The notes under the pieces are model-generated. The model searched no databases. It was not told where the DNA came from and worked only from the letters and a program-made list of their open reading frames with translations. The translations under genes were made by a program, and so were the position numbers. This document shows, piece by piece, positions 376-10,921 of a DNA stretch of 64,000 nt (within the stretch, counting starts at the first letter, position 1; each line of letters starts with the position of its first letter). The stretch is from Halorubrum aquaticum (GTDB lineage: Archaea > Halobacteriota > Halobacteria > Halobacteriales > Haloferacaceae): positions 1 through 64,000 of the forward strand of contig NZ_FOPZ01000011.1 of the NCBI RefSeq assembly GCF_900113615.1, written 5' to 3'.

Positions 376-915
376 TCACCGTGAGAGCGGCATCGAGAGC
401 CGGTAGGCCGCCCAGAGTTGGGCGACGGTCACGACCGCGAACGTCGCGAGCGCGCCGCTCGTCCAGAGCAGCGGATCGACCGCGCCGACCACCGGCGCGC
501 CGAGTTGGGCCGCGAGCACGACACAGAGCGTCACGACGCCGAGCAGCTGGTACAGTTCCGTCCACGTGAACCCGTAGCCGGCAACGACGGTCATGTACCG
601 CTCCACGTCGCGTGCGCCCCGGCACGCGCGCACCTCCTTGCGCGTTCGGTCGTACTCGACGACGCCGAGGTCGTGGAGTCGCGGCAGGTGCGTCTGGTGG
701 AGGGAGGCGTACACGCTCTCGCGCACGCAACGCGGGGCGGGCCACTCGCCCGTCTCGTCGGCGGCGATCGCCTCCGAGAGCTCCCTGACCGAGACGGCCC
801 CGCCGCGCGTCCGGAGCTCTCGGAGGGCGTTCTTTCGGCGGCTGTTCGAGAGCACGTCGTGGATGACGGTCTCCGGGAGCGAGTCGGATCGGATCCGTAG
901 GGAAATGGGAAACAC
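376..915 (-). CDS. Membrane-anchored HTH-type regulator (DUF7344-like)
   Basis: The N-terminal half reads as a haloarchaeal winged-helix domain of the DUF7344 type: a SLPETVIHDVLSNSRRKNAL start, a central HLPRLHDLGVVEYD segment, then EVRACRGAR. Two hydrophobic helices follow near the C-terminus, so it is probably a membrane-tethered regulator. I prefer the GTG at 915: a TATA-like acatacatat lies at about 947-956 on this strand, which places transcription start close to it. A TTG at 987 would add 24 residues without family character. It is divergent from the SipW/TasA-like gene at 1303, which makes it the first candidate regulator of that cluster. Family assignment is from recognised sequence style; the link to the cluster is inferred from position only. 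Confidence 0.72.
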   Translation of the reverse strand: MFPISLRIRSDSLPETVIHDVLSNSRRKNALRELRTRGGAVSVRELSEAIAADETGEWPAPRCVRESVYASLHQTHLPRLHDLGVVEYDRTRKEVRACRGARDVERYMTVVAGYGFTWTELYQLLGVVTLCVVLAAQLGAPVVGAVDPLLWTSGALATFAVVTVAQLWAAYRLSMPLSR

Positions 916-1164
916 CTCGTCTGAGAAGGTGAAGGACGACTGGGGGGATATGTATGTGCCGCGTACTGGTGTGTCACATGCTACCAACCGAATACTGCCG
1001 ATCCGCCCCGATCCGCGGTAGGTAGTCCCACGAGATACGGTAGGAGGTGACAGTGGGGGCGGTAGGGGACGCGGACGGAGCCGGTAGGCACCTCGATGCG
1101 TCCGGTATGACCCTCGATCCGTTCGTTCCGACTGCTCCTCTAAAACCGCTGAATCGGCCGATTT

Positions 1165-1216
1165 CGGTCGAACGAACGGTTATATCGGTCGATGGTCGGG
1201 TTCGGCCGGTCGATGG
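1165..1216 (+). promoter_or_regulatory. TATA box with three CGGTCGA boxes at 21-base period
   Basis: CGGTCGA occurs at 1165-1171, 1186-1192 and 1207-1213, each exactly 21 bases (two helical turns) after the last. A TATA-like ttatat at 1180-1185 lies between the first and second copy and is suitably placed for transcription toward the gene at 1303. Same-face, phased boxes around a TATA box are what a dimeric or cooperative regulator site would look like. The regulator is not known; the divergent HTH gene at 376-915 is the nearest candidate. The rest of the 387-base spacer (916-1302) shows no convincing gene. Confidence 0.5.
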
Positions 1217-1251
1217 CGGCGTTCGGATCCGACGTGTCGAGTCGTAACTAT

Positions 1252-1293
1252 CCCCCCTTCCGCTAAGGGAGGGGTACTGGCCGAAGACGCCAG
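1252..1293 (+). promoter_or_regulatory. Leader hairpins before first SipW-type gene
   Basis: Two hairpins sit in the leader. A C-rich arm at 1252-1259 pairs with aaggg-a-ggg at 1265-1273 (one bulged A), so the purine-rich gggagggg, the best Shine-Dalgarno-like stretch, is in the stem. A second hairpin, ctggc/gccag with a seven-base loop, is at 1277-1293, nine bases before the ATG. Folding was judged by eye. Confidence 0.4.
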
Positions 1294-1302
1294 GGATACT
1301 CA

Positions 1303-2676
1303 ATGGACGACAACAACAACTTCGGACTCTCGCGGCGCAAGATGCTCGGCGGCCTCGGCATGATCGGCGTGGCCTCCGCGGGTGCGGGACTCGGGACGAC
1401 TGCCTACTTCAGCGACGAGGAGAGCTTCGAGGACAACACCCTCACCGCGGGTTCGCTCGACCTCTTCGTCCACGTGGACTACTCCGAGGACCAGGGCAGT
1501 TACGGCAGCTATCAGACCCCGGATGGAACGTACATCGACGGCAACGTCGTTGGCGGTAGCGAGGGTGAAACCCTCCAGATCGAAGTCGAGGACCTGAAGC
1601 CCGGCGACTCCGGCGAGGGCGAGTTCTGTTTCTCCATCGTCGACAACCCCGCGTACCTGTGGATGTGCGGGGAACTGACCTCCAACGACGAGAACACCGT
1701 CACGGAGCCGGAGGCGGACTCCGAGGACGAGAACAATTCACAGACGACCGACGATCTCGATGGCGACGGCGAGCTCGCCGACGCGATGGAGGTGACGGTG
1801 TCGTACTGTACCCGCGACGAGGAGGGCGAGTCGGATGTCGGCGACGACATCGTCTCGGGTTCGCTCCGTGAGGTCATGGCCGCGCTTCAGGCGGGTGTCC
1901 CGCTGAACAGCGACGGGGATTCGGATGCTCCGGTAGCGAACCGCCCCGCGTTCGATGGCGTCGACGCAGCGTTCGACGAGGAGGACGTACCCCAGATCGA
2001 CGAGCAGTGCGTCTGCTTCACGTGGGAGGTTCCGGGCGAGGAGGTCGGCAACGAGATCCAGTCCGACTCCGTCACCTTCGACTTCGAGTTCTACGCGGAA
2101 CAGGCCCGCCACAACGACGGGACGACCAACCCGTGTGCGGACGAGTCCTACGAGGCCGACTACGTCAACCCCGAGGGCATCGCTCAGCCGATCCCCGACG
2201 GTGTCGCGCGAGTGGACGTCACCTACGGCGACGATCAGGTCGTCTACGGTATCACGTTCGACGAACCCGCCGGCAGCCAGTACAGCCTCGCCGACCCGAA
2301 CTTCGCGAGCGCGAACTTCTCGATGCCATTCGATGGCGACGACGACGGCGCCTACGACTACCAGGTCGCATGGAACGCACTGGGCAGCGACGAGTTCCGC
2401 TACTCCGCGGTCGAGAGTGGCCCGAACTGGGAGAAGGACACCTCCACCGGCTGGTCCGCGGTCCCGGCAGCGATCACTGCGGTTAAGTTCGGAAACCAGG
2501 CGGTCATCGCCGTTCCGCGTGCTGATCTCGCCGCCGGCGGGAACAGCTACGTCTTCGGATTCGGTGCGAGTGCCGGCGGAGAACAGCCATCTGTCGGGAT
2601 CCCGGTGGGTGGCCCGTACTCCAGCACGGCCAACTTCACCAGCAGCGAGAACGGCCAGAGTGCGACGCTCCAGTAG
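1303..2676 (+). CDS. SipW-dependent TasA/camelysin-like secreted protein with extra C-terminal domain
   Basis: The 457-residue protein begins with a Tat-type motif (LSRRKML, residues 9-15), a short hydrophobic stretch and TTAYFSDEESFEDNTLTAG, the signature after which SipW-type peptidases cut TasA/camelysin proteins. A beta-sandwich core follows, with LKPGDSGEGEF, DNPAYLWM, SGSLREVM, a CxCFTWEVP strand and the QSDSVTFDFEFYAEQ strand shared with the next paralogues. Unlike them it reads EQARHND, not EQCRHND, so one conserved cysteine is lost. About 180 residues beyond the shared core, rich in Asp, Gly and aromatic residues, look like a second beta domain. A surface fibre or matrix subunit is the likely role, inferred from bacterial TasA and archaeal bundling pili. 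Confidence 0.82.
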   Translation: MDDNNNFGLSRRKMLGGLGMIGVASAGAGLGTTAYFSDEESFEDNTLTAGSLDLFVHVDYSEDQGSYGSYQTPDGTYIDGNVVGGSEGETLQIEVEDLKPGDSGEGEFCFSIVDNPAYLWMCGELTSNDENTVTEPEADSEDENNSQTTDDLDGDGELADAMEVTVSYCTRDEEGESDVGDDIVSGSLREVMAALQAGVPLNSDGDSDAPVANRPAFDGVDAAFDEEDVPQIDEQCVCFTWEVPGEEVGNEIQSDSVTFDFEFYAEQARHNDGTTNPCADESYEADYVNPEGIAQPIPDGVARVDVTYGDDQVVYGITFDEPAGSQYSLADPNFASANFSMPFDGDDDGAYDYQVAWNALGSDEFRYSAVESGPNWEKDTSTGWSAVPAAITAVKFGNQAVIAVPRADLAAGGNSYVFGFGASAGGEQPSVGIPVGGPYSSTANFTSSENGQSATLQ

Positions 2677-2793: not shown

Positions 2794-3729
2794 ATGGAAA
2801 ACGACAGAATCGGACTCTCGCGGCGCAAGGTGCTGGTCGGGCTCGGAGCGATGGGCGTCGCCTCCGCGGGTGCGGGACTCGGAACCACGGCGTACTTCAG
2901 CGACGAGGAGAGCTTCGAGAACAACACGATCACGGCCGGGCAGTTCGAGCTCGAGGTCACGCAGTCGACCCACGTCGTCGACCAGGACGGGATCGGACCG
3001 GACGAACAGACGTTCGACTCGATGCTGGCCGAGGCGCAGGAGGAGGACCAGACGATCGAGGTCGTCGACGGCTTCCTCGACATCACGGACGCGAAGCCCG
3101 GCGACTCCTACAAGTACTGCTGGGACGTCTGTGTGAAACACAACCCCGGCTACGTCCAGATCACGCTCGACGGCGACGAGTCGACGGGCAACGACAACGG
3201 CGTGGACCACGTCGACGCCTCCGGGCTGCTCAGCGAGTACATGCTCGCGGTCGTCACGATCGACGACCAGCAGGCGGGCGACGACGAGGACATCGTCTTC
3301 CAGGGCACCCTCGGCGAACTCATCGACGAGTGGGACGAGGGTGGACTGATCCACGCGTACGCCGGCGTCGAAAACGACGAGCCGGTCGTCGAGTACTGTC
3401 ACCTCCCCTGCGAGTCCGACGTAGAGGGCGCGGAGCTAGCGGAGGACTCCGTCGAGGTCTGCGTCTACCTCTACTTACCCTCGCACGGGGACATCGGCGA
3501 GGAGGTCGCCGTCGACGGAACCACCTTCGACATCACGGAACAGATGTCTCCCGGCAACCTCGTTCAGGGCGCTTCTTTCAGCGGCGACGTCCACTTCGCG
3601 GCCGAGCAGTGCCGCCACAACGACGACCCGTTCGCGGAGGAAGCGGAGAGCGACGACCCGGCCAACGAGAGCGACGTCTCCGGCGATGACGGCGGCAACG
3701 CGACCGCCCTCGACGGCGGCGAGAACTGA
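2794..3729 (+). CDS. SipW-dependent TasA/camelysin-like secreted protein
   Basis: A 311-residue paralogue of the protein at 1303. Residues 8-14 form the Tat-like LSRRKVL motif, followed by GTTAYFSDEESFENNTITAG, the SipW-type processing region. The sandwich core keeps AKPGDSYKYCWDVC, HNPGYVQI, FQGTLGEL and the last strand, here TFDITEQMSPG.. with AAEQCRHND. Cysteines at the central strands and in EQCRHND suggest disulphides outside the cell. The last 30 residues are an acidic tail (EEAESDDPANESD). It is the shortest cluster member with a full signal and may be the plain fibre subunit; that role is inferred. It starts nine bases after hairpin B of the leader. Confidence 0.82.
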   Translation: MENDRIGLSRRKVLVGLGAMGVASAGAGLGTTAYFSDEESFENNTITAGQFELEVTQSTHVVDQDGIGPDEQTFDSMLAEAQEEDQTIEVVDGFLDITDAKPGDSYKYCWDVCVKHNPGYVQITLDGDESTGNDNGVDHVDASGLLSEYMLAVVTIDDQQAGDDEDIVFQGTLGELIDEWDEGGLIHAYAGVENDEPVVEYCHLPCESDVEGAELAEDSVEVCVYLYLPSHGDIGEEVAVDGTTFDITEQMSPGNLVQGASFSGDVHFAAEQCRHNDDPFAEEAESDDPANESDVSGDDGGNATALDGGEN

Positions 3730-3747
3730 ACGAAGACCTGACCGACG

Positions 3748-3760
3748 GGGGAATCTCCCC
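3748..3760 (+). promoter_or_regulatory. Short leader hairpin before vWA/TasA-like gene
   Basis: In the 48-base spacer, gggga-atc-tcccc forms a perfect five-base stem with a three-base loop, 17 bases before the ATG at 3778. It has the same size as hairpin B of the neighbouring spacers but the purine arm is on the 5' side. The T-arm unit is absent here. Confidence 0.4.
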
Positions 3761-3777
3761 TACCATATCACACACAC

Positions 3778-5514
3778 ATGACGGACAAGAAAACTACAGG
3801 ACTCTCCCGCCGCACGCTGCTCGGCGGTCTCGGAGCCATCGGCGTCGCGAGCGCCGGTGCGGGCCTCGGCACCACCGCGTTCTTCAGCGACGAGGAGGGT
3901 TTCACCGACAACACGATAGAGGCCGGAGCGGTCGAGCTCCGGATGGACTGGCAACAGAGTTACTACATGGGGCTGGAGGGGCAAGACCCCGAAGACCACA
4001 CGACGTGGGAGCCGGTCAACGCCTACCCCGACCTGGACGGCGACGACCGCCAGGACCCGATCTACACGCGATTCCAGCTCGAGGAGGACCCGACGCTGGT
4101 CGGACTTCCGGCCAATGCCGACGAGGACGCGATCGAGGAGGCCTACCGCGGCCAGTTCGCGAGCTTCGAGGACACCGACGGGAGCGGGAACCACGAGTTC
4201 GTGGGTCCCGTCATCGACTTGGACGACGTCAAGCCCGGCGACCGCGGCGAGATCACGATCAGCAAACACGTCTTCGACAACCCGGCGTACCTCTGGCTCA
4301 ACGCGAGCGGCTTCGAACACACCGTCGGCGAAATGAACGACCCCAAACGCGAGGCGCTCGTCGAGCGGTACGCCGAGGAACTCGGCGAGGAGTTCACCGA
4401 CGACGACCTGATCGCGCTGGCGGAGGCGGAGGCACAGCTCGCGAAGGAGATCGAGACCACGCTCTGGTACGACGACGACTGTGACAACTTCTTCGACGAG
4501 GGGAGCGACGTCTGTATCCAGTTCGTCGTCGACAACACAGACTCGATGGGAAGTTCGGCACCCATGGGATCGACCACCGATTACAAGGACAAGCTCCTGA
4601 TCGAGGCGCTCGAAACGTACGTCGACCGACTCGACACCGGAAACGGAGCCGAAAGCAGCGACGGTGACACTGCCCCGTTCAGCGTCGGACTCACCAACTG
4701 GACGACGACCGCGGATACCGTCCTCCTGCCGACGAGCGACGTGAACGACGTCATCGGTACCGACGGTGGAAGTTACAACGACTCCACGGGCCTCCAGACG
4801 ATCGACTACCAGGACGAGATCCTGGGTGGCACCGACCTGCCGAACGCGATCCAGGCGGGAGCCGATGTGCTCGGTGAGTGCCCCGAGGACGATGAACGGG
4901 TAATGGTCCTGATCACGAACGGGATCAACGTCGATACGAGCCAGTTCCTCGCCGCGGCCAGCGACAATCTCCGATCGGAGGGCGGGGAGGTCGACAGATA
5001 CCTGATCGTCGGGTTCGGGACGCCACCGAACTCCGTCGACGTTCTCGAGGAGATCAGCACGCTTCCCGGGAACCACCGGTTCATGCTCGTGCTCGACACC
5101 GACATCGATGCGGCCATCAACGGCCCGACCGACCCGAACACGAACCCGAGCACGAGCGTCGCCGAGGAGATCGGCTTCACCGCGGGCGGCGAACAGCCGA
5201 TCTTCGAGGGATCGCTGTACGACCTCCTCACGGAGAGCCCCAACGTCACCTCGGACGGGTTCCTCGACGAGTACGTGGTCGACGGCATCGCGGGCGGCTA
5301 CCCGCTCGACTCGGACCGCAACCGCGAGGGTCGGCAGTGTTACCCCAACTCCGACACGCGCTGTATCGCGCTCGAATGGCACCTCCCCTACGAGGTCGGC
5401 AACGAGATCCAGGGCGACTCCGTCGTCTTCGATCTGGACTTCTACGCCGAGCAGTGCCGCCACAACGACGGCACGTACAACCCGTTCGCCGACGAGACGG
5501 CCGGTCCCGCGTAG
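3778..5514 (+). CDS. SipW-dependent TasA-like protein with nested vWA domain (degenerate MIDAS)
   Basis: The 578-residue protein has LSRRTLL (residues 9-15), then GTTAFFSDEEGFTDNTIEAG, and the sandwich strands VKPGDRGEITI and DNPAYLWLNAS. A von Willebrand A domain is inserted at about residues 243-445, between ETTLWYDDDCDN and FEGSLYDLL; afterwards the core resumes with RCIALEWHLP and FDLDFYAEQCRHND. The metal site is partly altered: DNTDS at 252-256 fits DxTxS, GGTDLPNA supplies a Thr, but the usual Asp of the third motif is Asn (LITNG, Asn381). Metal binding may thus be weak. Such a layout suggests an adhesive or capping subunit of a surface fibre; that is inference. The spacer after its stop carries element 2. 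Confidence 0.82.
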   Translation: MTDKKTTGLSRRTLLGGLGAIGVASAGAGLGTTAFFSDEEGFTDNTIEAGAVELRMDWQQSYYMGLEGQDPEDHTTWEPVNAYPDLDGDDRQDPIYTRFQLEEDPTLVGLPANADEDAIEEAYRGQFASFEDTDGSGNHEFVGPVIDLDDVKPGDRGEITISKHVFDNPAYLWLNASGFEHTVGEMNDPKREALVERYAEELGEEFTDDDLIALAEAEAQLAKEIETTLWYDDDCDNFFDEGSDVCIQFVVDNTDSMGSSAPMGSTTDYKDKLLIEALETYVDRLDTGNGAESSDGDTAPFSVGLTNWTTTADTVLLPTSDVNDVIGTDGGSYNDSTGLQTIDYQDEILGGTDLPNAIQAGADVLGECPEDDERVMVLITNGINVDTSQFLAAASDNLRSEGGEVDRYLIVGFGTPPNSVDVLEEISTLPGNHRFMLVLDTDIDAAINGPTDPNTNPSTSVAEEIGFTAGGEQPIFEGSLYDLLTESPNVTSDGFLDEYVVDGIAGGYPLDSDRNREGRQCYPNSDTRCIALEWHLPYEVGNEIQGDSVVFDLDFYAEQCRHNDGTYNPFADETAGPA

Positions 5515-5527
5515 TCTCGCCGAATGA

Positions 5528-5626
5528 GACCTGCGGGCAGGTCGGCTGCTCGCCTCCCACTCGAAGCCCCGTAGGGCGGTCGAGACGGCGGTTCGAATCC
5601 GCCGGTGGGCGTTCCCCTTCGGGGGA
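5528..5626 (+). promoter_or_regulatory. Intergenic RNA-like element 2 (hairpin A, T-arm mimic, hairpin B)
   Basis: Hairpin A at 5528-5543 is gacctg/caggtc with a cggg loop. The junction unit at 5556-5609 is closed by cccac/gtggg. Inside it are a tcga/tcga-closed arm with a gccc/gggc hairpin (5561-5583) and ggcgg-ttcgaat-ccgcc at 5587-5603, a T-arm with the exact tRNA T-loop TTCGAAT. Hairpin B at 5613-5626 is a five-base stem capped by a C(TTCG)G tetraloop and ends six bases before the ATG. The T-arm stem differs from element 1 by a compensated pair (A-T there, G-C here). Function unknown. Confidence 0.55.
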
Positions 5627-5632
5627 CCAATC

Positions 5633-7228
5633 ATGACAGACGAAGGAATCGGACTCTCGCGGCGCAAGATGCTCGCCGGCCTCGGGGCCGTGGGCGTCGC
5701 GTCCGCGGGAGCTGGACTCGGAACGACCGCCTACTTCAGCGACGACGAGTCGTTCGAAGGCAACACGCTCACCGCCGGTGAGTTGGATCTGAAGATGGAC
5801 TACCGGATGACCTACCGGGGTGGCCCCGGACGGCTCGCGGAGCTCCAGGAGAACTACCCGAACGCCACGTTCGTCGACGAGGACATGGAGCCGACCGACG
5901 ACGACACCGGCGTGTACCTCCTCGATCAGGTCCCCAACCGATCGGAGTACCCCGGAGCCGAGGACTGGGTCATCGGCGCGAACGGCGTCTATGACCCCGA
6001 GACGGGCGAAGGTGAGGGGTTCCAACGCGACGAGCTGATCGACGCGGGTGACCTCGAGGACGCACTCATCCGTATCGGGGACGTGAAACCCGGCGACTAC
6101 GGCGAGGTCACCTTCAGCACACACCTGTACGACAATCCCGGTTACATGTGGATGGGCGGGATGCTCACGGACGAGAACCAGAACGGCTACACCGAACCCG
6201 AAATCGAGGCGCTCGAGGAGATGGGGGATCCCACGGACGACCCCGACGGTGACGGGCAGCTCGCCGACTCGATCCGGGCGAAGATCTGGTACGACGACAA
6301 CTGCGACAACGTCCACCAGGGAGAGCGCGACGAGGAGAGCGAGGGCGTCGACGTGATGCTCTCGATCGACAACTCCGGCTCCATGGGAGGCGGTCCCGGG
6401 AGCAAGATGGAACAGGCGAAGGCGGCGGCGCTGGACTTCGTCGAGAACCTCGGCCCCAACGACCGAGTCGGCCTCGTGACGTTCGAATCGACCGGGCAGC
6501 TCCGACAGGGCCTCACGAGTACCCACTCGAACGTCGAAACGTATCTCCAGCCCGAGCCCGCCGGGATCTCCGATGCCGGACGCACCATGATGGACGCCGG
6601 TATCGATCTGGCGGCCGACGAGCTCAACGACAACGGTCGAAGTGGCGTCGACGAGGTCATCATTCTGCTCGGCGACGGCGAGCCGAACGAGTCGGATCGT
6701 GCCGGTTCCGACCACGTCCAGAACGCGAAGGACGCGGCAACGGACGCGAAAAACGACGGAATCACCGTGTTCACGATCGGGTTGGGTGTCAGTAACGGAA
6801 GCACCGCCCAGAACACGCTCATAGACATGGCGAGTTCGAGCAACGGAACCACACTCTACTACGACTCGCCGACCGGCACGGATCTCGACGACATCTACTC
6901 GCAGATCTCCTCGGTCATCCTCACCGGCGAGGAGGTCATCGCCGAAGGCACGCTACGCGAGGTCATGGGCGCGCTTGAAGAGGGAATCGAACTGGACGCG
7001 AACGTCCAGACGGAGGACCGGGTCTGTTTCACCAACTCCGTGACCCGGTGTTTCGGCTTCGAGTGGGAGCTTCCCACCACCGTCGGAAACGAGGTCCAGA
7101 CCGACTCCGTCGAGTTCGCGATCGGCTTCGCCGCGGAACAGTGCCGCCACAACGACGGCGAAACGAACCCGTACGCGATCGACGCCGGCGGGAACACGAC
7201 GGATGGCGGGAACGTGACACAAGCGTAG
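5633..7228 (+). CDS. SipW-dependent TasA-like protein with nested vWA domain (intact MIDAS)
   Basis: This 531-residue protein shows the Tat-like LSRRKML at residues 8-14, GTTAYFSDDESFEGNTLTAG, and the core strands VKPGDYGEVTF and DNPGYMWM. A vWA domain at about residues 238-430 is inserted at the same place as in the paralogue at 3778, after KIWYDDNCDN. Its metal site is complete by eye: DNSGS (246-250), a Thr in GRTMMDAG, and an Asp in LLGDGE (348). The core then continues with GTLREVMGALEEG, RCFGFEWELP and GFAAEQCRHND. vWA domains with this site bind protein ligands through a divalent metal, so ligand or surface adhesion is plausible. The two vWA paralogues may be partners or alternates. 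Confidence 0.84.
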   Translation: MTDEGIGLSRRKMLAGLGAVGVASAGAGLGTTAYFSDDESFEGNTLTAGELDLKMDYRMTYRGGPGRLAELQENYPNATFVDEDMEPTDDDTGVYLLDQVPNRSEYPGAEDWVIGANGVYDPETGEGEGFQRDELIDAGDLEDALIRIGDVKPGDYGEVTFSTHLYDNPGYMWMGGMLTDENQNGYTEPEIEALEEMGDPTDDPDGDGQLADSIRAKIWYDDNCDNVHQGERDEESEGVDVMLSIDNSGSMGGGPGSKMEQAKAAALDFVENLGPNDRVGLVTFESTGQLRQGLTSTHSNVETYLQPEPAGISDAGRTMMDAGIDLAADELNDNGRSGVDEVIILLGDGEPNESDRAGSDHVQNAKDAATDAKNDGITVFTIGLGVSNGSTAQNTLIDMASSSNGTTLYYDSPTGTDLDDIYSQISSVILTGEEVIAEGTLREVMGALEEGIELDANVQTEDRVCFTNSVTRCFGFEWELPTTVGNEVQTDSVEFAIGFAAEQCRHNDGETNPYAIDAGGNTTDGGNVTQA

Positions 7229-7264
7229 TCGTTCGCTCACGGGCCCCCGGACCCGGTTCCCCCA

Positions 7265-7336
7265 CCCACTCGAATTCCTCGTTTGGAACGGTCGAGACGG
7301 CGGTTCGATCCCGCCGGTGGGATTCCCGATTCGGGA
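7265..7336 (+). promoter_or_regulatory. Intergenic RNA-like element 3 (T-arm mimic, hairpin B)
   Basis: The unit is closed by cccac (7265-7269) and gtggg (7317-7321). It contains a tcga/tcga-closed arm with ttcc/ggaa (7270-7295) and ggcgg-ttcgatc-ccgcc at 7299-7315, again a five-base stem with a seven-base T-loop. Hairpin B at 7324-7336 is tcccg-att-cggga. Unlike elements 1 and 2, the next start codon is about 195 bases away, so here a direct effect on translation is unlikely and a 3'-end or processing role is more natural. The remaining bases up to 7530 show no gene. Confidence 0.5.
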
Positions 7337-7530
7337 CGCGAAAACACGCGATCGAGAACGGGACTCGAGGGCCAGATCCGCACGACAGGCACACCCTGTC
7401 GGTCGTTCAACCGGTCAATCAACGCGGTTCGGAGTCCGAACCGTTCGGGTAGGAGGCCCATACATACGTACCGAGGTGACGTGAGACACACCGACGATCC
7501 GGCCGTTCGGAGCCGACGACGAGGACACGA

Positions 7531-8325
7531 ATGACGAAACCAGACACACACCTAACGCGGCGGCAGGCCCTCGCGGGCATCGGAGCCGTCGGCTTCGCGA
7601 CCGCCGGAATGGCCGGAGGGCGGTCGACGGGCAGCTGGGACCGATACACGAGCTACACCTACGCGCAGTCGGACGTCCCGACGCAGCTCTTGGTCGGCTG
7701 GCGCAGCAGATACAACGGTCAGCTCGTGGGCGAGAGCCCGACCGACGAAGTCGCGGAGGTCGACGAGCTCGCCGAGACGGTCCGACTCATCGACCAGGAG
7801 AACGTCCTGCCGATGGACACGGGCTCGACGAGCGTCGGTCTCCGGATCGACGATCCGGGCGAGAACGTCCCGGACGGCGTCCGGGTGTGGATGAAGATCG
7901 ACCCGGAGATCGGCTCCGACGCCGCGAGCCAGGCGCTCGCGGAGCGGATCGATGTCTCGGTTCGCTACGACACGGGATTCCTCGGCGTCGGCGGCTGTGC
8001 CGGCGCGGAGAACGTCGACGACCTCCCGAGCTTCGGTGACGGGATCTTCTCGGGCACCCTCGCGGAGCTCGACGCCGACGATCTGACGGAGGGGATCGAG
8101 GTCGATCCCGGGATCCTCGACAACGGCTGTCTGACTACCGAGGAGAGCCGCTGTCTCGCGTTCAACTGGGAGTTCCCGATCGGCGATGGCGGCAACGCCG
8201 GGAAGGGCGGCTCCGTCGACTTCGACGTGAAGTTCTACGCGGTCGACTGTGCGTGGACCGGCAATCCGTTCGCGGAGCCGGTGCCGGATCACGAGGAATC
8301 GGAGGGCTCGGAGGTGTCGGAATGA
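7531..8325 (+). CDS. TasA-like secreted protein lacking the SipW processing motif
   Basis: The 264-residue protein has a Tat-like LTRRQAL (8-14) and a hydrophobic GIGAVGFATAGMAGG, but after it comes RSTGSWDRYTSY instead of the FSDEE region. It still shows the family's sandwich features: SVGLRIDDPGENVPDGV, FSGTLAEL, RCLAFNWEFP and a last strand SVDFDVKFYAVDC. The tail is acidic (EESEGSEVSE). It may therefore be processed by another peptidase or stay anchored, and could act as a base, cap or minor subunit. It is the first gene of the overlapping operon 7531-12172; its stop TGA overlaps the next ATG (ATGA). Confidence 0.75.
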   Translation: MTKPDTHLTRRQALAGIGAVGFATAGMAGGRSTGSWDRYTSYTYAQSDVPTQLLVGWRSRYNGQLVGESPTDEVAEVDELAETVRLIDQENVLPMDTGSTSVGLRIDDPGENVPDGVRVWMKIDPEIGSDAASQALAERIDVSVRYDTGFLGVGGCAGAENVDDLPSFGDGIFSGTLAELDADDLTEGIEVDPGILDNGCLTTEESRCLAFNWEFPIGDGGNAGKGGSVDFDVKFYAVDCAWTGNPFAEPVPDHEESEGSEVSE

Positions 8326-9854
8326 CCGCCGACGGGAGCGGACGGGGGGCCTCCGGACTGGCCGGCCTCAGCCGTCGCCGGCTCCTCGCCGGGCTCGGCG
8401 GGCTCGGCGCGATGGGGGCCGCGAGCGGCGCGGGCACGTTCGCGTACCTCTCGGACGAGGAGGCGTTCCGCCGCAACGAGATCGGTGCGGGGGAGGTCGA
8501 ACTCGAGGTGTCGTGCTCCGGTTCGAGCGTGGACGGCGACTGTGCCGTCTCGAACGGGACCGTGAGCTTCACGCCCGAAGAGCCGATCGACCGCGGCGAC
8601 TGGGGTGACGTGACGTTCGACGTCTCGGTGCGGAGCAACCCCGCACGGCTCTGGTTCGCGACGACCTGTCCGCGGGTTCGGGATCCGCTCGGCGACGCAC
8701 TCGACGTGTCGCTCAAGGTCGGAGACGACTGGGTGTTCCCGTCCGGATCGCTCTCGGATCTCCGCCGCGAGTTCGCGGGCGGACTCCGGGTCGACGACCG
8801 CGACGGCGACCCGTGTCTCGATCCCGGGGCAGACGCCCTCGAGATCGAACTCGTCTGGGAGCTTCCCGAGGACGCGCCCGCCGCGGTGGCGGGAGAGACG
8901 ACCGGGTTCGAGTTCCGGCTCTACACCGAACAGTGCCGGCACGTCTCCGAGGACGAGGCCGAGGCCGGATCGAACCCCTACGCGGGGATCGAGTGTGACG
9001 AGCCGGAACCGGAGTGTGTAGTCTGTGACGGGGAAGACGAGGACGTCTACTCGCTCCTCGAGTTCGAGTACCTCGGGAACGAGACGGCGTATATCACCGC
9101 CGGAACCCAAGGAAAGGGAACGAACGGTGAGATCGCCTTCGAGGGGGACATCGATCCCGGCGAGACGTTCGTCGCCGACGGCGCGAACGTCGGTGGCAAC
9201 TCGGGCGCACTGGGTGCCAACCTGTATCTCGACGATGGGAGCGACGGCCAACTCCAGAACGGAAACGGACGTCCACCCGGAGTGAAGGTCCACACGAGTT
9301 GCTCGGAGGACCTCTACGTCGGCCAGGAGTTCGATATCGACGGCGCCCCACGATATCAAATCGTCGCCGGAGAGATATTCGGAAAGGGACGGATCTGTGG
9401 CGATCCGACCGGAGAAGACGATGGGGACGACCACGACGACTCGGGCGACTGCGAGTGCGGCGGAAACGTCCGCTACCGTGATCTGACGTTCCGCTACGAC
9501 GGCGGATCCGACGCCACGATCCGGGTCACCACCCAGCAGACGGGCGGTGGAAACGAAGTCGTGTTCGAGGAGACGACGATCGCACCCGGAGGAACGTTCA
9601 CCGCCGACGGGAATGACGTCCCTCAAGCGTGGGGCAACGTCGGAACGAGCCTCGGACAGAACACGACGATCGAGATCGTCGACGGCGGCGACGACGGCGC
9701 CACGGAGACCGTCGAGATCCACACCAGCTGTTCGGCGGTCCTCACGATCGGGGACGCGTTCGGCTCGGACGGATCGGGAGGAACGCTCTATGAACTCGTC
9801 GGCGGGACGTTCACCGACGAAAACGCGCTCTGCGGCTCGGAGGACCTACAATGA
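8322..9854 (+). CDS. SipW-dependent TasA-like protein with two tandem C-terminal domains
   Basis: The ATG at 8322 overlaps the previous stop, giving 510 residues. LSRRRLLAG is followed by GTFAYLSDEEAFRRNEIGAG, the SipW-type region. The sandwich core spans to about residue 225 and ends with FEFRLYTEQCRHV. Two related domains of about 125 residues follow, at roughly 236-360 and 376-505. They share a TxxF(V/T)ADG strand, VxxHTSCSxxLxxGxxF, and YxxVxGxxF near the end, each with Cys in TSC and in (I/L)CG. Their pattern resembles a haloarchaeal domain of unknown function (DUF7467-like); that name is from memory. It is probably the largest surface subunit encoded in the operon and is coupled to the peptidase gene by ATGA. 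Confidence 0.8.
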   Translation: MTADGSGRGASGLAGLSRRRLLAGLGGLGAMGAASGAGTFAYLSDEEAFRRNEIGAGEVELEVSCSGSSVDGDCAVSNGTVSFTPEEPIDRGDWGDVTFDVSVRSNPARLWFATTCPRVRDPLGDALDVSLKVGDDWVFPSGSLSDLRREFAGGLRVDDRDGDPCLDPGADALEIELVWELPEDAPAAVAGETTGFEFRLYTEQCRHVSEDEAEAGSNPYAGIECDEPEPECVVCDGEDEDVYSLLEFEYLGNETAYITAGTQGKGTNGEIAFEGDIDPGETFVADGANVGGNSGALGANLYLDDGSDGQLQNGNGRPPGVKVHTSCSEDLYVGQEFDIDGAPRYQIVAGEIFGKGRICGDPTGEDDGDDHDDSGDCECGGNVRYRDLTFRYDGGSDATIRVTTQQTGGGNEVVFEETTIAPGGTFTADGNDVPQAWGNVGTSLGQNTTIEIVDGGDDGATETVEIHTSCSAVLTIGDAFGSDGSGGTLYELVGGTFTDENALCGSEDLQ

Positions 9855-10921
9855 ACTCACCTATCACGCTCAAACGCTTTGCCAACCTGCTCGGGATCGC
9901 CCTGCTGATCGCGGTCGTCGCGCCCTTCGTGGTGTACGCGGTGCCGGCGGTCGTCGGGGCGGAGTACAGCTTCGTCGTGTTGACGGCGAGCATGACGCCC
10001 GCGATCGCCCCCGGTGACGTGGTGGTCGTCGACGAGCGCGACCCGGCGGCCATCGCCGAGGGCGACGTGATCACGTTCGTCCGCGGCGAGAGCGAGGTCC
10101 CGGTGACCCACCGCGTGGTCGGCGTGACGGAGGCGGGCGGAGGGATCGCCTTCGAGACGAAGGGCGACGCCAACGAGGACCCCGATTCGGCGCCGGTTCC
10201 GGCCGCGAACGTCCTCGGCGCGGTGGCGTTCTCGATCCCGTACATCGGGTACGTGATCCAGTTCACCGACTCGCCGACGGGGTTCACTCTCCTCGTGATC
10301 CTCCCGTTCGCGCTACTCGTGTTCTCGGAGGTCTGGAGCCTCTACCGCGCCCGTACCCCGACCGGCGGAGACGCGGCGACGGAAACCGACGATCTCGCGA
10401 ACGATCGCCACGAATCCGCGGATTCCGGATCCGTGGACTCCGAGTCCGTAGGTTCCGAACCCGACGGAGTCGCGATCGAGGCGAACGCGGTCGCAGAGCC
10501 GCCCGCCGAATCGGCCGTCGAACCGTCCGCCGAGTCCGGCTTCGTGGTGACGAACCGGACCGTCGAGGGAGCCGTCGTGGTTCTCCTGGGATTCGTCCCG
10601 TACGCGGCGTACGTCGCCTACACGCTCCAGACGGCCCTCGCCGTCGCGGTCGCGGTCGGCACCGCGACGACGCTGCTGATGGCGGCCGTTCTCCTCCTTA
10701 CGGGCGGCGAGGATGCCGAACCGACCACCGCCGACGGCGACGATGACGCCCCGACTGACCGCGACGGGCGGCCCGCGTCGGACGAGCGGATCGAACCGAA
10801 CGAGCGGCCCGCATCGACCGACCGAGATCCGATGGGGATCTTCGAGGCGCCTGAGGTCGCCCCCGTCATGGACGGCGGAACCGAGCGCACTCACGAGGAG
10901 GCCGATGAGGTGGAGCGATGA
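9851..10921 (+). CDS. sipW: SipW-like signal peptidase I (Ser/His type)
   Basis: This S26-family membrane protease has an N-terminal anchor (residues about 12-36), box B TASMTPAIAPGDVV with Ser47, VPVTHRVVG with His87 where bacterial enzymes have Lys, and ETKGDANEDPD with conserved Asp. The Ser/His pair is typical of archaeal, ER and SipW enzymes. A second membrane helix follows the catalytic domain (about 138-160), then about 80 Glu/Ser/Asp-rich residues, then another hydrophobic region (about 235-285) and an acidic tail, so it is longer than usual for SipW. It lies inside the operon with five genes that carry its expected cleavage motif and is overlapped on both sides by ATGA junctions. Processing and release of those subunits is the likely job. 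Confidence 0.9.
   Translation: MNSPITLKRFANLLGIALLIAVVAPFVVYAVPAVVGAEYSFVVLTASMTPAIAPGDVVVVDERDPAAIAEGDVITFVRGESEVPVTHRVVGVTEAGGGIAFETKGDANEDPDSAPVPAANVLGAVAFSIPYIGYVIQFTDSPTGFTLLVILPFALLVFSEVWSLYRARTPTGGDAATETDDLANDRHESADSGSVDSESVGSEPDGVAIEANAVAEPPAESAVEPSAESGFVVTNRTVEGAVVVLLGFVPYAAYVAYTLQTALAVAVAVGTATTLLMAAVLLLTGGEDAEPTTADGDDDAPTDRDGRPASDERIEPNERPASTDRDPMGIFEAPEVAPVMDGGTERTHEEADEVER

Follow-up and report, generated by a model that had tools for sequence, protein, structure and literature searches.

A candidate two-tier, helically phased operator between a DUF7344 regulator gene and a SipW/TasA-like surface operon in Halorubrum aquaticum

In Bacillus, the tasA-sipW operon encodes cargo with SipW-type signal peptides together with a signal peptidase, has a biofilm or surface role and is under SinR control. 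In haloarchaea, the GvpE UAS of gas-vesicle promoters lies next to the BRE and has two parts of 8 nt each, and the neighbouring regulator presumably binds it as a dimer (PMC4390858). The sptA promoter of Natrinema carries dyads over the BRE and WW elements, and distal direct repeats at -174 to -134 act as an enhancer (PMC6085418). Further, in Sulfolobus the transmembrane regulators ArnR and ArnR1, which have an N-terminal HTH, control a surface filament operon, as described in PMC13286277.

In the 64,000 nucleotides of Halorubrum aquaticum DNA analysed here (the window), the intergenic region 916-1302 separates a divergent DUF7344 gene from a SipW-cargo operon. A sequence-only reading had placed a phased triplet of CGGTCGA boxes between a regulator-like gene and a large operon, and this setting holds. 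As in Bacillus, SipW-type cargo and an apparent biofilm or surface function go together, here with a putative signal peptidase within the operon; however, SinR is not a DUF7344 protein and its sites differ, and the likeness is at most a convergence of roles. We consider it fairly probable that 916-1302 is a two-tier, helically phased cooperative operator of the SipW/TasA-like surface operon, with the divergent DUF7344 regulator as its binder.

The regulator gene (376-915, minus strand) encodes a predicted winged HTH followed by two C-terminal membrane helices. Its product matches Pfam PF24035 (DUF7344) above the cut-off (E 9.9e-26, 90.4 bits against 27.8), and its GTG start at 915 agrees with the point where homology begins. 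The AF2 model (mean pLDDT 76) places the winged HTH at residues 15-97 and TM-like helices at 118-138 and 148-174, and these two long helices are predicted to be membrane spans. A comparison with the PDB gave no convincing match by sequence and weak winged-helix matches by fold, none of them at E <= 0.001. The order of an N-terminal HTH and C-terminal membrane helices recalls the arrangement of ArnR and ArnR1, but their cargo is the archaellum, and a comparable site array is not seen in the accessible text of PMC13286277. A TATA-like element at 947-956 (minus strand; GATATGTATG on the plus strand) would belong to the regulator's own promoter, and a ATATGTATG/ATAGGTATG-type string occurs at the equal position in nearly all relatives compared.

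The first cargo gene (1303-2676, plus strand) encodes a TasA/camelysin-type signal peptide (TIGR04088, E 8e-7; Pfam M73, E 1.5e-5). Later cargo genes on the same strand begin at 2794, 3778, 5633, 7531 and 8253 and span 2794-9854, that at 7531 being assigned by appearance only. TIGR04088 scored above its cut-off of 19 in five of the six (29.0, 32.6, 21.3, 30.3 and 21.4 bits). The product of 5633-7228 has a VWA domain (Pfam, E 2.7e-19), which suggests an adhesive surface protein. The putative SipW-like signal peptidase of the operon (9851-10921, plus strand) matches Pfam S26 (E 1e-4), its 22.8 bits being marginally below the cut-off of 22.9.

A look-alike of a tRNA T-arm also accompanies the cargo genes, in which CGRCGG-TTCGACT-CCGYCG is followed by GTGGG and a CCCC-GGGG hairpin. 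It is found in the window within 2705-2793, 5556-5632 and 7255-7345, and at other loci including L084, L104, L115, L122, L134, L158 and L185-L191. The copies at 2749 and 5590 stop right before a cargo start codon, and that at 7302 lies about 200 bp 5' of the reading frame at 7531. Across 31 copies from several genera, the six stem pairs are kept almost throughout, pair 3 switches between G-C, A-T and G-T, and the loop is of TTCGANT type. An upstream CCCAC-like partner accompanies 19 of the 31 (5.4 expected). Rfam and ARAGORN gave no match to these look-alikes, which may be tRNA-like elements that act in processing or translation.

Within the intergenic region, CGGTCGA occurs on the plus strand at 1165, 1186 and 1207 with an exact 21-base period, as first reported. 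The caution that the word could arise by chance was justified, for it is common in the window (102 copies against 87 expected). The triplet nevertheless exceeds chance. In pattern searches of the 3.18-Mb genome, 21-bp pairs of CGGTCGA were counted at 18 sites and a chain of three only here. Seven-mers that recur in triplets with a constant period between 10 and 60 numbered 11 in the window and 0-3 in Markov controls, and two of these 11 families, CGGTCGA at 21 and four copies of CGGTAGG at 22, lie in this same intergenic region. Longer units of 21 bp (CGGTCGAACGAACGGTTATAT, CGGTCGATGGTCGGGTTCGGC and CGGTCGATGGCGGCGTTCGGA) contain the boxes as their left halves; the second and third of these units are identical at 17 of 21 letters, a likeness that could in part reflect a recent tandem duplication.

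The exact word CGGTCGA did not hold up as a conserved element. Of the eight closest promoters, five retain it at box 1, four at box 2 and one at box 3, and all three copies occur together in this genome only. The TATA-like string GGTTATAT (1178-1185) does lie between the first two boxes, as had been noted, but is not conserved among relatives. As a fixed centre of the region it was rejected: orthologues show GTTATAT, GTTAGTT or GTTTCAG at this place, and clade C has nothing TATA-like. The conserved TATA box with BRE of a canonical haloarchaeal promoter is therefore missing from this set, the string being variable in orthologues and absent in clade C.

The CGGTCGA boxes prove to be left halves of imperfect dyads of the form TCGAACG-N3-CGTTCGA, and by comparison the conserved unit is the core of this dyad, CGA-N7-GTT, rather than CGGTCGA. 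On the plus strand, dyad 1 (TCGAACGAACGGTTATA, 1168-1184; 3/14 mismatches) overlaps part of the box at 1165 and part of the TATA-like string and occupies a slot about -75 to a conserved downstream string, the anchor described below. Dyad 2 (TCGATGGTCGGGTTCGG, 1189-1205) lies at -53/-54 and dyad 3 (TCGATGGCGGCGTTCGG, 1210-1226), the best conserved of the three, at -32. The window's own dyads are weak, with 3-4 mismatches in 14. At the slots -32, -53/54 and -75, the core was found 31 times in 11 clade-A promoters and 33 times in 26 clade-C promoters, whereas the same core with an N5, N6 or N9 spacer gave 0-1 cases in these clades. Dyads with <=3 mismatches numbered 87 against 9.7 expected. The triple core occurs once in the organism's own genome (1169-1223), and across 170 genomes it was recovered in clade A and C promoters, in tandem repeats of coding type as judged from their sequence, and in a few chance matches. 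Perfect single dyads were rejected as a genome-wide regulon marker: the own genome has nine, of which one lies within a cargo gene, and they are uninformative.

Repeated BRE-TATA-like core elements for general factors, namely alternative TFB/TBP pairs, could also give such 21-bp units, with the regulator acting elsewhere. The succession of CGAA and GTTA does resemble a BRE and a weak TATA, unit 1 contains GGTTATAT, and the last unit is at the expected core-promoter position. However, the triple is found once in the genome and therefore does not represent a general promoter class, dyad symmetry is unexpected for BRE and TATA elements, and L037, which comes from another family, has three dyads exactly 32 bp (three turns) apart, including a perfect one. 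We regard this explanation as unlikely, if still worth considering. The region also differs from a GvpE-type UAS: in place of two 8-nt elements with a 4-nt spacer and a leucine-zipper-like activator, there is a dyad with N3 and a predicted winged helix.

A second tier, absent from the sequence-only reading, lies 56-150 bp upstream of the triplet. It consists of five direct boxes on the plus strand at 1016-1022, 1038-1044, 1060-1066, 1082-1088 (all CGGTAGG) and 1103-1109 (CGGTATG), with steps of 22, 22, 22 and 21. This array, the stronger of the two tiers, is kept in several genera and in two clades of the regulator. Over 21 array loci, the box-to-box distance was 22 in 45, 21 in 35 and 23 in 2 of 82 cases, and among close relatives the box columns are 94% identical and the spacer columns 53%. 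CGGTAGG-N15-CGGTAGG has the array as its single place in the own genome; in relatives it marks orthologues only, except for one match beside an Orc1/Cdc6-like gene (G025). In addition, when 170 genomes of the family were searched for CGGTA three times at 21/22 bp, more arrays were recovered between DUF7344 and SipW genes, with unrelated spacers. A general repeat class was rejected as the source of the array, the other triple CGGTA matches being mostly near-exact tandem repeats with no DUF7344 or SipW match. Many clades that retain the lower tier lack the CGGTA tier. Exactly one array unit is lost in L014 and L086, and the losses in L014, L086 and L087 are of whole units.

Two other repeats were observed in the course of these searches. 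In L110 (G104), five ACATA repeats with TACCGG/TACTGG lie at exactly 22 bp, 20-130 upstream of the regulator, and amount to a GGTA-type array reversed, to which a half-step of about 11 bp is added. In L045, degenerate tandem CGGTAGGGTGTGGGTG repeats (1441-1580) beside an Orc1/Cdc6-like gene have no relation to the operator and probably mark a replication origin.

With its dyads across core elements and its distal direct repeats, the region resembles the haloarchaeal sptA promoter; however, the sequences are unrelated, and a cross-species 21/22-bp lattice is not described there (PMC6085418). Similarly, the GvpE UAS belongs to a haloarchaeal divergent control region with a site bound by the neighbouring regulator, as we infer here, but it is one 20-nt element per promoter where the present lattice has 3-8 units, and GvpE resembles a leucine-zipper protein, in contrast to the predicted winged helix with membrane helices (PMC4390858).

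The period itself was compared across 131 regulator loci picked on protein similarity alone. At 93 of these loci, drawn from many genera, the promoter that separates the DUF7344 regulator from a SipW-cargo gene has a conserved anchor before the SipW gene, and 87 of these promoters are non-redundant. In the 110 bp above the anchor of these 87, 4-mer repeats at lag 21 numbered 272 against 57.2 expected (204 against 51.7 once the window's own clade is left out) and at lag 22 numbered 146 against 57.2; the controls are first-order Markov, and z-values overstate independence because the sequences are related. The period is 21 or 22 in clades A, A2, B, C and D, and B2 shows it weakly at 20. Non-coding gaps of the window served as a control and gave 24 against 18.6 expected, without the promoter pattern. 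Coding 3-bp periodicity was rejected as the source of lag 21, as random coding windows add 12, 15, 18, 27 and 30 and the promoters do not. De novo, a 5-mer repeated at least four times at 21/22 bp was found in 21 SipW-adjacent regions (0.0 expected), with almost none at other spacings. Over the region as a whole, the lag spectrum has its peaks at 21, 22, 32, 43 and 44, and the eight window boxes give a resultant of 0.86 at 10.5 bp. The last array box and the anchor are 90/91, 99, 111, 120, 129/130 or 140/141 apart, distances that fit whole turns at 10.5 bp (R 0.82, p 0.01, from six distance classes only).

In clade D (L105, L119, L125, L127 and L130), the 21-bp lattice is built from another word, CCGTAGA-N-CCGCTA; letters drift and spacing stays. 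A second DUF7344-SipW pair in the own genome (L084, C1:142500-160500) has its own 21-bp lattice of ACGTT type, without a CGGTA array.

The earlier proposal of phased boxes on one DNA face is thus strongly supported by the 21/22-bp period kept among relatives in several regulator clades, but not with the exact word CGGTCGA as its unit. Sites at whole helical turns with a conserved period indicate a phased operator, and spacing kept in many relatives even as letters change suggests a genetic switch with cooperative binding. The triplet could instead have arisen, without function, by neutral tandem duplication of 21 bp, which would agree with the 17/21 identity of units 2 and 3 and with L087, which has one unit fewer. 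Yet clades with unrelated letters keep the period, and the CGA-N7-GTT core is conserved between divergent spacers in slots fixed relative to the anchor. Duplication is largely refuted by this comparison and very improbable as the general explanation, and may hold for the exact identity of the CGGTCGA boxes here. Phased tracts that bend DNA or place a nucleoid protein would share the period of two helical turns, but the repeated words are sequence-specific and dyadic rather than A-tracts, and the near-identity of the array boxes adds to this; we give this explanation hardly any weight.

The anchor that defines the slots, CGTAACTA (1243-1250, plus strand), is present as such in 46 of the 93 promoters, the others having ATTAGCTA, ATTGGCTAA, GGTAATAC or similar, and is the probable transcription-start region. 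Beyond it, a six-genome alignment shows a conserved 5' leader (1251-1297, plus strand) with CCCC-GGGG and CTGGC-GCCAG hairpins. Across 1243-1297 and orthologues, the leader GTCGTAACTATCCCCCCTTCCGCTAAGGGAGGGGTACTGGCC..GCCAG is highly conserved, and CCCC/GGGG hairpins recur 3' of the anchor in other clades with differing letters. An Rfam search of the leader gave no match.

In the cooperative operator that we favour, the divergent DUF7344 winged-helix protein, anchored in the membrane through its two helices, would bind the three imperfect dyads (1168-1226, step 21, across the core promoter) as dimers. Dimers two turns apart would share one DNA face and could bind cooperatively, and the upstream array of direct boxes (1016-1109) would nucleate or stabilise the complex. 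Full occupancy would shut the operon, and an envelope signal would relieve it. Full occupancy more likely represses because dyad 3 sits at the BRE/TATA place if the start is near CGTAACTA; the direction of control is a guess, with repression favoured and activation nearly as likely. One protein may not bind both tiers because the words of the tiers differ. Coupling of the membrane anchoring to the state of the envelope is a conjecture.

The DUF7344 regulator is the likeliest binder of the sites. A regulator encoded elsewhere, such as another haloarchaeal winged-helix protein or a GvpE-like activator, could also bind a phased operator of this kind, since the link between DUF7344 and the sites is indirect, and clade A2 carries TGAAACG-like strings, which we take to recall GvpE-type sites. 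However, the lattice accompanies the DUF7344-SipW pair, and no 21/22 signal was seen in a small sample of 11 DUF7344 genes that lack a neighbouring SipW gene. Further, the presence of the CGGTA array tracks the tree of 129 regulators, with 3 changes against 18.1 when labels are shuffled. Binding by a regulator encoded elsewhere is in our view rather unlikely.

Among the papers searched, none names DUF7344, none joins SipW with Halorubrum, and none describes the proposed phased switch between a membrane-anchored regulator and a SipW operon. The best reading is that the operator is new as a system and of a known general kind. Only tentatively, haloarchaeal surface operons may be switched by a membrane-tethered winged-helix protein that forms a registered dimer filament over 150-200 bp, with letters drifting and the two-turn register kept.

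The DUF7344 family is very common among haloarchaea and has no described function. For a DUF7344 protein, the conserved lattice would supply a concrete target sequence, and in many genera it predicts the partner operon. It would also be an archaeal case in which operator spacing evolves more slowly than operator letters.
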